A stretch of 64,000 nucleotides of DNA from Kordiimonas aquimaris. Its GTDB lineage: Bacteria; Pseudomonadota; Alphaproteobacteria; Sphingomonadales; Kordiimonadaceae. The first letter of the stretch is position 1. Every line of letters starts with the position of its first letter. The position numbers and the translations under genes were made by a program. The notes beneath the pieces were generated by a model that was given only the letters and a program-made list of their open reading frames with translations, ran no database searches and was not told where the DNA came from. The stretch is taken from contig NZ_JAOBPO010000005.1 of the NCBI RefSeq assembly GCF_025574485.1, positions 124,001-188,000 of the forward strand. The letters are read 5' to 3'. Of this stretch, positions 43,600 through 62,539 are shown piece after piece.

Positions 43600-43942
43600 A
43601 AGGGTGAAGTGGGCCGTTCTGTTGCTAGGTGGCCCAACCCCCACCTGAAGGCGTCAACCCTCAGGAATTTATGTAAATGTAGTTTTCTATGACTGCTTAC
43701 GCAGCGATAGCCAACTCGACGTCATTGTCGTTAGCATTTATCAAATTTGGTCCATTACGGCGGTAGCCTTGCCGAACGAAGAGCATACACTTTTCAATAC
43801 ACGTCGATCCTGGTTCGCCCCCATCAACAATAGTTACCTTAGAAATATACGATAACTACTCTTGGTGGAGGCGCCGGGCACTGCCCCCGGGTCCGCAATA
43901 CTTACTAACTGCGCCGTTTATCGTCATAGCTGACAAGTCAGC
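43600..43942 (-). ncRNA. ssrA: tmRNA (ssrA), circularly permuted two-piece form
   Basis: Rescues stalled ribosomes and adds a degradation tag. Read on the minus strand, the acceptor piece comes first (about 43942 to CCA at 43865-43863), then an intervening loop (43862-43823, with a TAGTTA/TAACTA stem), then the coding piece from GGGGGCG at 43822. That 5' end pairs with CGCCTCC of the acceptor piece, giving an acceptor stem with a G-U at position 3, the alanine identity element. The tag frame at 43735-43697 reads ANDNDVELAIAA then TAA. Hairpins GGGCC/GGCCC close the 3' end near 43605. The end points are approximate by a few bases. Confidence 0.95.
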
Positions 43943-43948
43943 AGTGCT

Positions 43949-43977
43949 TATATAGGCGCTGTGCCGTGTAATTTGAA
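43949..43977 (-). promoter_or_regulatory. ssrA promoter
   Basis: On the minus strand, TTCAAA (43977-43972), a 17-base spacer and TATATA (43954-43949). The start would fall near 43942, at the beginning of the acceptor piece. The consensus match is good at -10 and moderate at -35. Confidence 0.65.
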
Positions 43978-44066
43978 GCTCTTTTGTGAGAAATCTACTT
44001 TGATGCAAATACGTTTTGTGTCACGTTCAATTTAACTTCTTTCTTTCAAGGGCCCGTGTCGTCATT

Positions 44067-56740: not shown

Positions 56741-56746
56741 AGTTAG

Positions 56747-56858
56747 TGACGATATCACGCCAGCCTGCGATGTCGTCAGGAGTCTGTCAGCCCAAAGCAG
56801 ACTCCAACTGTGACGAGACCCACCCCGGGGGCGCTCTTAGAGCGCCCCCAATTATTTG
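56747..56858 (+). ncRNA. Candidate structured RNA (small RNA or ilvB leader)
   Basis: Three hairpins in a row: GACGATATC/GATGTCGTC (56748-56756 with 56769-56777, one wobble), GGAGTCTG/CAGACTCC (56779-56786 with 56798-56805, perfect), and GGGGGCGCTC/GAGCGCCCCC (56827-56836 with 56840-56849, perfect, 3-base loop) followed by AATTATTT. This resembles the shape of alphaproteobacterial small RNAs ending in a terminator. I know no named family that it matches. It could instead be a leader that ends transcription before ilvB. Confidence 0.4.
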
Positions 56859-57064
56859 AGAGGTGTTTTCTTTTTAAAAAGCATCTCTTTTACGGCGGTG
56901 TACAATGCCGATGACGTTGCTGAATACATAGCGCTTTAGCAATAAGCGTGTGATGAAGCGAGCGTCGGCGGAGACTGTTGCAGGTATGTATATTTGGGTG
57001 AAAATTAGGTGTAACAGCGAAAGCTGTTCACTATTGTATAGTAACTGAATTGTGGGCCGTGACC
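56859..57064 (+). other. Rest of the ilvB upstream region
   Basis: A further imperfect hairpin, AGAGGTG (56859-56865) with CATCTCT (56882-56888) and an AT-rich core, ends in TTT. A GAAA-looped stem AACAGC/GCTGTT lies at 57013-57028, 36 bases before ilvB. Short frames exist (for example 20 codons from 56983 containing two Leu codons in a row), but none is rich enough in Ile, Val and Leu codons to call a leader peptide. Confidence 0.4.
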
Positions 57065-60482: not shown

Positions 60483-60500
60483 TTGCTGATTTATTATCAA

Positions 60501-60546
60501 AGATACAAGAAGGGCTGCTGGATAAACCAGTGGCCTTTTTTGTATC
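60501..60546 (+). terminator. Long imperfect terminator hairpin after ilvC
   Basis: The inner stem AAGGGCTGCTGG (60510-60521 region) pairs with CCAGTGGCCTT (60527-60537 region) with a bulge and a T6 tail; the outer arms AGATACAA (60501-60508) and TTGTATCT (60540-60547) are also complementary. It separates ilvBNC from leuA. Confidence 0.8.
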
Positions 60547-60660
60547 TTATATACTCAGGTACAGTGCATTAAATCGGCAAACAGGTTTTGTTCGGCGATC
60601 TGCTATCAAACGATGCTTCTGAGGTGAGTATGTTAGTAATCACCTTTGATGATATTGTAA

Positions 60661-60666
60661 TATAAT
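60661..60666 (+). promoter_or_regulatory. Possible -10 element before the leuA leader ORF
   Basis: TATAAT, a perfect -10 hexamer, 75 bases before the 51-codon ORF. No good -35 is found at 16-18 bases, so the promoter is uncertain. Confidence 0.3.
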
Positions 60667-60740
60667 TACTCAAAATTACGGCTTGCAATAATAATAGGTC
60701 ATGTTATTTCTTGCTTTGTGAAACTTAATGGGCATTTGAT

Positions 60741-60896
60741 ATGAGCATTCAACCACGCCGCGAAACGCAAGGCAAAGCTATTGCAGCCATAAGGCAGCAA
60801 CAAATCGCTGTGCGTATTCGGTATGCTGCCATAACCTCTACGGCGTTGCTGATGGTGCTCATGCTACTAGGGTCGGGCCGACTAATCGGCCCTTAA
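60741..60896 (+). CDS. 51-codon leucine-rich small ORF before leuA (possible leader peptide)
   Basis: The frame runs from ATG at 60741 to TAA at 60894. The N-terminal half is basic (MSIQPRRETQGKAIAAIRQQ), the C-terminal part hydrophobic and Leu-rich (TALLMVLMLLGSGRLIGP), with a CTA CTA pair at 60864-60869. The final codons overlap a hairpin (60875-60892), which itself competes with a longer one. This is what an attenuation leader for a leucine gene would look like, but a small one-helix membrane protein is also possible. Ribosome site weak. Confidence 0.5.
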   Translation: MSIQPRRETQGKAIAAIRQQQIAVRIRYAAITSTALLMVLMLLGSGRLIGP

Positions 60897-60939
60897 GCAC
60901 ACCAGCAGAAACGTATGTATTCGTTTCGGTGCTTAAGGG
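60875..60939 (+). promoter_or_regulatory. Two overlapping hairpins in the leuA leader
   Basis: Hairpin A: GGGCCGA (60875-60881), loop CTAA, TCGGCCC (60886-60892). Hairpin B: CCCTTAAGCAC (60890-60900) with GTGCTTAAGGG (60929-60939), plus inner GAAACG (60908-60913) with CGTTTC (60922-60927). A and B share bases 60890-60892, so both cannot be complete at once. No U-tract follows B, so if it regulates, it need not be a classic terminator. Confidence 0.5.
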
Positions 60940-60991
60940 GACTGCTAGAGCTATTCATTACCCAGTATCAATATAAATTCAGGAAAATCCC

Positions 60992-62539
60992 ATGTCACAC
61001 AGTGATAAGGACAGTGTTCGCATATTTGACACAACGCTACGCGATGGTGAACAGTCACCTGGCGCATCAATGACTATTGAAGAAAAAATACGCATTGCTG
61101 AACTATTGGAAGCTATGCGCGTTGATATTATCGAGGCAGGTTTTGCCATTGCGTCAAACGGTGATTTTGAGTGCGTGCAGAAAATTGCACAGCAAATTAA
61201 ACAGTCTACAGTTTGCTCTCTAGCGCGCGCAGCCTTGCCTGACATTGATCGCGCAGCCGAGGCACTGAAACAGGCAGCTCGTCCAAGAATTCACACTTTC
61301 ATAGCAACTAGCCCTTTGCATATGAAAGTTAAGCTTCAAATGGAGCCAAAAGCGGTAATTGAAGCCATTCACGCATCGGTTAGCCATGCAAGAAATTTTG
61401 TCGATGATGTGGAATGGAGCGCGGAAGATGCGACGCGTACCGAGATGGATTTTTTATGTCAGGCGGTTGAAACGGCAATTAAAGCTGGTGCAACCACGAT
61501 CAACTTACCTGACACGGTTGGTTATACAACACCAAGAGAATACAGAGAGATGTTCCAGTCGGTGATTAACCGCGTTCCCGGCGCTGCCAAAGCCATTTTC
61601 TCCACTCACTGTCACAATGATCTTGGTTTGGCTGTTGCTAATTCTCTTGCGGGTGTTGAGGGAGGTGCGCGCCAAATTGAATGTACAATCAACGGTATCG
61701 GTGAACGGGCCGGTAATGCTGCCATGGAAGAGGTTGTTATGGCACTGCGTACACGTGCTGATGCCATGCCTTACCACACAAATATAGAGACAACGTCGAT
61801 TATGAAAGCAAGCAAGCTGGTATCAACTGTTACTGGCTTTAATGTGCAGAATAATAAAGCAATTGTCGGCGCAAATGCTTTTGCTCACGAATCTGGTATC
61901 CATCAAGATGGTATTCTGAAGAATGCTGAAACTTATGAGATTATGACGCCAGAATCGGTGGGAGTTACCAAAACCACTTTAGTCATGGGGAAATTGTCAG
62001 GCCGCGCTGCTTTTGCGGACAAATTAAAAGACCTTGGTTATGAACTTGGCGACAATGCATTTCAGGATTGTTTTCGGCGGTTTAAGGAGCTCGCTGATCG
62101 CAAGAAGAATATATACGATGAAGATATTATTGCGCTGGTTGATGATGAAGTCGCAACTGCAGAAAACCGCCTTCGCCTTGTTGCGTTGAATACACACTCG
62201 TCCACGGATGGCACAGCGGTTGCAGACTTGACGATGTCTATTGACGGGGAGCCGAAGAAGTCTGTTGTGTATGGTGCTGGCCCAGTTGATGCCGTGTTTA
62301 ACGCTGTGAAAGATGTGATGGACTGGCACCCGCGACTGGTTATTTTCCAGGTTCATGCAATTACACAAGGGACCGATGCCCAAGCAGAATGCACAGTTCG
62401 TTTGGAGGAGGATGGTCGTACGGTTAACGGCCAAGGCGCTGACGAAGACACAATAACGGCTGCGGCTCGTGCTTATATTGCTGCGATGAACAAGCTAATG
62501 ATTAAACGCGAAAAGAGAGCCATTGCTGCAACAGGCTGA
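60992..62539 (+). CDS. leuA: 2-isopropylmalate synthase
   Basis: First dedicated step of leucine synthesis. The DRE-TIM barrel starts [17 protein letters not shown] (about residues 9-25) with metal residues and [16 protein letters not shown] (about 206-221); the C-terminal LeuA dimer/regulatory domain (about 390-505) binds leucine for feedback. AGGAAAA lies 8 bases before the ATG. 515 residues is the bacterial LeuA1 length. The gene is transcribed behind the leader region described above. Confidence 0.98.

Follow-up and report, generated by a model that had tools for sequence, protein, structure and literature searches.

The region upstream of leuA in Kordiimonas aquimaris contains a short, Leu-rich open reading frame (ORF) followed by potential RNA hairpins, which raises the question of whether leuA is controlled by a leader peptide and, if so, through which structure. 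We analyzed a 64,000-nucleotide stretch of contig NZ_JAOBPO010000005.1 (hereafter the window; the leader features below lie on its forward strand). The gene order is ilvB, ilvN, ilvC, an intergenic region (60483–60991), leuA, and mreB. The proposed controlled gene, leuA (60992–62539, forward strand), encodes 2-isopropylmalate synthase, as identified from its ORF and a search for LeuA homologs. An ordinary intrinsic terminator ending in six T (60512–60541, read from the sequence) closes ilvC and sets ilvBNC apart from the leader, so leuA is probably transcribed separately, with a leader of its own. The leader ORF (60741–60896) encodes 51 amino acids, MSIQPRRETQGKAIAAIRQQQIAVRIRYAAITSTALLMVLMLLGSGRLIGP, and its Leu-rich C-terminal third ends in LLGSGRLIGP followed by the stop codon. 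An earlier first-pass annotation, made from the sequence alone, had given coordinates for this ORF and for two hairpins, A and B, all of which were correct when compared with the sequence and the ORF list. As described below, leuA is very probably controlled through a leader peptide encoded in this region, and comparative sequence evidence favors a leucine-responsive, ribosome-gated leader, to which we assign a probability of about two-thirds.

To describe the leader in relatives, we searched 61 genomes for LeuA, oriented 30 of the loci, and read the sequence ahead of each gene; one locus (L027) stops at a contig edge. The leader motif was found before leuA in all 29 oriented loci with upstream sequence, namely, the window's own and 28 others. 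The homologous ORF in each of these ends in (R/H)L(I/V/T/L)(G/S/R)P and a stop codon (TAA, TGA, or TAG), is followed by stem B, and is Leu-rich in nearly all of them. Amino acid constraint was strong on the last 20 codons (pN/pS of 0 to 0.37 in most close pairs) and weaker on the rest of the ORF; three close pairs gave ratios of synonymous to nonsynonymous changes of 4:0, 3:0, and 3:0 in this tail, and the first part changed more freely. This combination of a freer first part and a synonymous-biased tail, obtained from the Ka/Ks comparison that the first-pass annotation had suggested, fits what is expected of a leader that is translated and keeps its codon run, and from the constraint we infer that the ORF is translated. 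The pattern that the annotation had set against a leader was conservation of the whole 51-residue sequence by synonymous changes only, together with stems lacking covariation; we found instead that the N-terminal part is freer and that stem B covaries. An N-terminal basic motif, (A)KAKAIAISR (encoded within 60741–60800), is kept across much of Kordiimonas (L002–L014), where its codons show many synonymous changes. The motif is not required of a leader that works by a codon run, and it possibly has a role in membrane insertion or translation start.

The position of the Leu codons relative to the hairpins was also conserved. The Leu codon region of the window reads TTG CTG ATG GTG CTC ATG CTA CTA (60846–60869), and most Kordiimonadaceae have Leu at codons −9 to −12. 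The tandem CTA codons at 60864–60869, where a stalled ribosome had been placed, are in frame with the leader ORF, but the most constant Leu codon is the last one, at 60882–60884, in the loop of hairpin A. This codon −4 forms part of the CGA CTA pair (Arg and Leu; 60879–60884) five bases before stem B. Codon −4 encodes Leu, mostly as CTT, in 117 of 117 non-redundant leaders, with a fixed spacing of five bases to stem B; CGACT belonged to the pattern by which some of this set was chosen, whereas the Kordiimonadaceae leaders were collected without it and had Leu at codon −4 in 23 of 23 cases. Other parts of the tail are less constant. The CGA codon before codon −4, nearly fixed in Kordiimonas, is replaced by a Leu codon (CTC or CTG) in some lineages, the Pro after codon −4 is Leu or Phe in some lineages that keep stem B, the leader stop has become TGG (Trp) in 23 of 84 leaders from other lineages with the same hairpin, in which case a new stop may come two codons later, and the ORF is as short as 14 codons (Gluconobacter, MTFLSILSLRLIGP). 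Because Arg, Pro, stop, and length all vary, conservation lies in the Leu codons and hairpin B rather than in the peptide per se. Leaders with TGG in place of the stop within stem B include L146, L155, L166, L169, and others from Acetobacteraceae and Sphingomonadaceae, usually with GCG TGA following and a peptide end of RLxRPWA. A degenerate relative, L095 (genome G036), likewise has TGG for the stop and an ORF extended by a few codons, and it retains stem B.

Stem B consists of a 5′ arm at 60890–60900 (CCCTTAAGCAC), which includes the leader stop TAA (60894–60896), and a 3′ arm at 60929–60939 (GTGCTTAAGGG); a small hairpin (GAAACG/CGTTTC, 60908–60927) is predicted by folding within its loop. 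In the family, 98.4% of cells in 28 loci were paired, and three pairs were changed on both sides. Over 92 sequences, 95.3% of 1003 cells were paired and compensatory changes were present in seven of the 11 pairs; double-changed cells numbered 112, compared with 33.6 in shuffles, and none of 500 shuffles reached 112. Versions of the stem slid along the same 92 sequences were only 34 to 55% paired. Because the 92-sequence alignment was fitted to the model's stem, its count leans toward stem B; an unfitted MAFFT alignment of 49 sequences gave 95.7% pairing and 62 double-changed cells, compared with 18.4 in shuffles. Judged by these compensatory changes, hairpin B is real. A pseudoknot formed by the loop of B and the bases that follow the hairpin stood out in individual genomes (AGCAG/CTGCT in the window) but was only weakly indicated overall; own versus swapped sequences gave p = 0.06 for Kordiimonadaceae and 0.05 for the class set, compared with 0.47 to 0.59 in other sets.

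Hairpin A (60875–60892; 7 bp, GGGCCGA/TCGGCCC with a CTAA loop) behaved differently. The first-pass annotation had described A and B as mutually exclusive and had built a switch on their exchange. The two do share 60890–60892, but this description is too strong, as the minimum-energy fold holds both hairpins with three bases contested. The 76-nucleotide segment containing A and B folds at z = −3.7, and one of 200 shuffles was as good. Despite pairing in 91% of cells, hairpin A showed no compensatory changes in the family alignment, and its register is not kept outside the Kordiimonas family. We therefore rejected hairpin A as a conserved competitor of B. The alignment of relatives that had been proposed as a check thus gave a split outcome, with conserved Leu codons and compensatory changes in stem B on the one hand and none in stem A on the other; leader-peptide control of leuA retains the support of the conserved Leu codons, stem B, and the constrained tail, whereas the A-versus-B switch does not. 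A supported antiterminator that would exclude a terminator was not found, because A lacks covariation and the alternative hairpin between the 3′ arm of stem B and downstream sequence occurs only in family f8 (mean z of −2.2) and some Acetobacteraceae; it is absent in Kordiimonas (mean z of +0.6). The f8 leaders (L075–L086) appear to carry a different output platform: the 3′ arm of their stem B has a downstream copy as an alternative partner (GCGTTT/AAACGC), and another hairpin lies before leuA.

As masking the leader during folding raises Shine–Dalgarno accessibility in a partly trivial manner, we used shuffles and swaps to look for a partner of the Leu-codon strand near the leuA start. In free RNA, pairing of the leuA Shine–Dalgarno region with the Leu-codon stretch was 0.45, compared with 0.24 for a shuffled stretch, in one set and 0.29 compared with 0.18 in Kordiimonadaceae, centered on leuA positions −12 to −9. 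Since composition could produce such a shuffle signal, leaders were also paired with the leuA starts of other species. Across 117 genomes, the Leu strand paired with its own leuA Shine–Dalgarno region at −15.7 kcal/mol and with swapped regions at −13.5 kcal/mol, that is, better by about 2.1 kcal/mol with its own (z = −7.75), whereas control segments gave z values of 0.8 and 0.4. A grid of window pairs displayed an antidiagonal ridge of leader positions −45 to 0 against leuA positions −36 to 0. The swap signal was weak in Kordiimonadaceae (z = −2.3, p = 0.014) and absent in family f8. In the window genome, pairing between the leader and the leuA Shine–Dalgarno AGGA (60981–60984) was not predicted by folding, unlike in many relatives; instead, the minimum-energy fold of this single genome pairs GCTACTAG of the Leu-codon strand (60863–60870) with CTAGAGC just 3′ of stem B (60945–60951) as a base stem. 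Outside the Kordiimonas family, the partner structure is more likely to be a base stem in which the Leu codons pair with the leuA Shine–Dalgarno region than the A/B pair.

The leader is widespread in Alphaproteobacteria. A second covariance model matched 92 and a third (R3) 119 of 385 sampled alphaproteobacterial genomes, and in 299 genomes of the phylum there were just two matches from outside the class, neither with an adjoining leuA signature. A pattern scan of named genomes found the leader in Acetobacteraceae, Rhodospirillales, Azospirillaceae, Sphingomonadales, Caulobacter, Geminicoccaceae, and Kordiimonadaceae. Of 80 loci retrieved from the scan, 76 lie directly before leuA; the 77th is that of Eilatimonas, with leuA further downstream, and the other three look like chance matches. 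Many of the leaders precede a second type of LeuA that is only 29% identical to that of the window. No convincing second copy of the leader was found in the window's own genome, where the next best match, apart from the antisense of the same stem, had an E value of 0.2.

We propose the following scheme, which builds on what the sequences show: a constrained ORF, stem B, a Leu codon at fixed spacing, a consistent place before leuA, and Leu codons that across the class are complementary to the Shine–Dalgarno region. The 51-codon ORF would be translated, and a shortage of Leu-tRNA would make the ribosome pause on the Leu codons, which end five bases from stem B. The footprint of the paused ribosome would keep the Leu-codon strand out of any helix and stop the base of stem B from closing, and leuA would be expressed. 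With ample leucine, the ribosome would reach the stop inside stem B and depart, allowing stem B to close; in most lineages outside the Kordiimonas family, the freed Leu-codon strand would then pair with the leuA Shine–Dalgarno region, and leuA translation would fall. The stalling, the direction of control, and the output step are what we infer from sequence comparison. Several observations count against the scheme: a U-tract is missing from the window and nearly all relatives, Shine–Dalgarno pairing is not predicted in the window, is weak in Kordiimonadaceae, and is absent in family f8, and pure codon counting leaves the KAKAIAISR motif of Kordiimonas unexplained.

The output could instead be classical transcription attenuation, in which stem B, or an adjoining Rho-dependent site, ends transcription at ample leucine and a stalled ribosome prevents this. 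The position of the ribosome and the order of the hairpins fit such a mechanism, as does the T5 after stem B in Eilatimonas. In L281 (genome G404), a longer stem B of about 18 bp with T8 behind it stands directly before leuA and looks like an intrinsic terminator; this is the clearest sign that B is the OFF structure, which the Eilatimonas T5 also fits, and it supports the ribosome-gated scheme as well. However, only eight of 117 non-redundant leaders have at least five T in an 8-base stretch of the 14 bases that follow stem B, and our scan agreed with the first-pass annotation that no U-tract follows hairpin B in the window, although this genome uses U-tract terminators, as after ilvC. We therefore regard transcription attenuation as an unlikely explanation for the leader.

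Two readings that assign the function to the peptide itself appear far less probable still. An arrest peptide, whose R-L-x-x-P-stop tail would stall its own ribosome on leucine itself, as TnaC does with tryptophan, would account for the conservation of GRLIGP and the stop and for the nearly fixed CGA codon in Kordiimonas, but the changes from Arg to Leu, from Pro to Leu or Phe, and from stop to Trp described above occur in lineages with the same hairpin, and only the Leu codons and stem B persist across lineages. We find it equally hard to credit that the ORF encodes a functional one-helix membrane peptide preceding leuA by chance, a caution raised in the first-pass annotation. The conserved basic N-terminal motif, the hydrophobic stretch in Kordiimonas, and purifying selection would suit such a peptide; however, the N-terminal part evolves faster than the Leu tail and is not common to lineages outside the family, the association with leuA and stem B is strict, and the 14-codon ORF of Gluconobacter is not compatible with a general membrane protein. 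The ribosome-gated leader remains the reading that we prefer.

We compared the leader with known systems. It has general features of ribosome-mediated attenuators, namely, a Leu-rich short leader ORF and a conserved stem B at a fixed distance from the Leu codons. In enteric leuL-type attenuators, a Leu-codon leader peptide directly precedes a leucine biosynthesis gene, the position of the ribosome decides which hairpins form, and a U-tract terminator is present. The alphaproteobacterial leader shares the first of these features and, in the proposed scheme, the second, whereas in the window it lacks a U-tract terminator and a supported antiterminator; L281, with its T8, is the exception. The actinobacterial LEU element upstream of leuA comprises a Leu-codon ORF with internal structure, and its Leu codons pair with the Shine–Dalgarno box without a terminator (Seliverstov et al. 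2005, PMC1262725). A protein-binding site was favored for this element, since mutations of the leader codons in Streptomyces did not behave as attenuation predicts (PMC1262725). The alphaproteobacterial leader likewise has a Leu-codon ORF upstream of leuA, a conserved internal structure, and no terminator, and its counterpart of the LEU base stem is clear class-wide, albeit weak in Kordiimonadaceae and not predicted in the window genome. By contrast, its sequence is different, and its internal structure is one stem holding the leader stop, and a pseudoknot, a further feature of the LEU element, is only weakly indicated. By anatomy, it would work like the LEU element; membership is not claimed. 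A short leader ORF before a branched-chain pathway gene is also common to the Corynebacterium ilvB uORF motif, which is enriched in Ile, Leu, and Val codons and has an intrinsic terminator and an antiterminator (PMC11109978), and to the leader attenuator of Caulobacter ilvIH (PMC4117421), but the genes and structures of these two differ from those of the leuA leader.

No family in Rfam 15 matched the leader above its gathering score, and the open papers searched described the LEU element and other leaders but no alphaproteobacterial leuA leader; an earlier prediction may exist in older subscription papers on attenuation in Proteobacteria. A covariance model of the leader would fill this gap in Rfam. 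We put forward tentatively the idea that Alphaproteobacteria have a class-wide leucine switch not described before, whose Leu codons may serve both as the Leu-tRNA sensor and as the RNA strand that hides the leuA Shine–Dalgarno, and whose hairpin may have become an intrinsic terminator in one or more lineages. If this is true, the leader would parallel the actinobacterial LEU element, either by convergence or by ancient origin; it would favor ribosome gating for such elements and would make the working of the LEU element testable in a second phylum, and the translational output would account for the absent terminator. Leucine control of leuA would also be defined in about a third of sampled Alphaproteobacteria, in groups including Acetobacteraceae, Rhodospirillales, Sphingomonadales, Caulobacter, and Kordiimonas, before both of the divergent LeuA types.

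Two other features of the window were recorded. The stretch upstream of ilvB (56746–57050) has no evident run of branched-chain codons and contains a strong GC hairpin (56827–56849) followed by AATTATTT; this stretch may hold a terminator for the preceding gene or belong to an attenuator. A permuted alphaproteobacterial tmRNA is located at 43608–43981 on the reverse strand.
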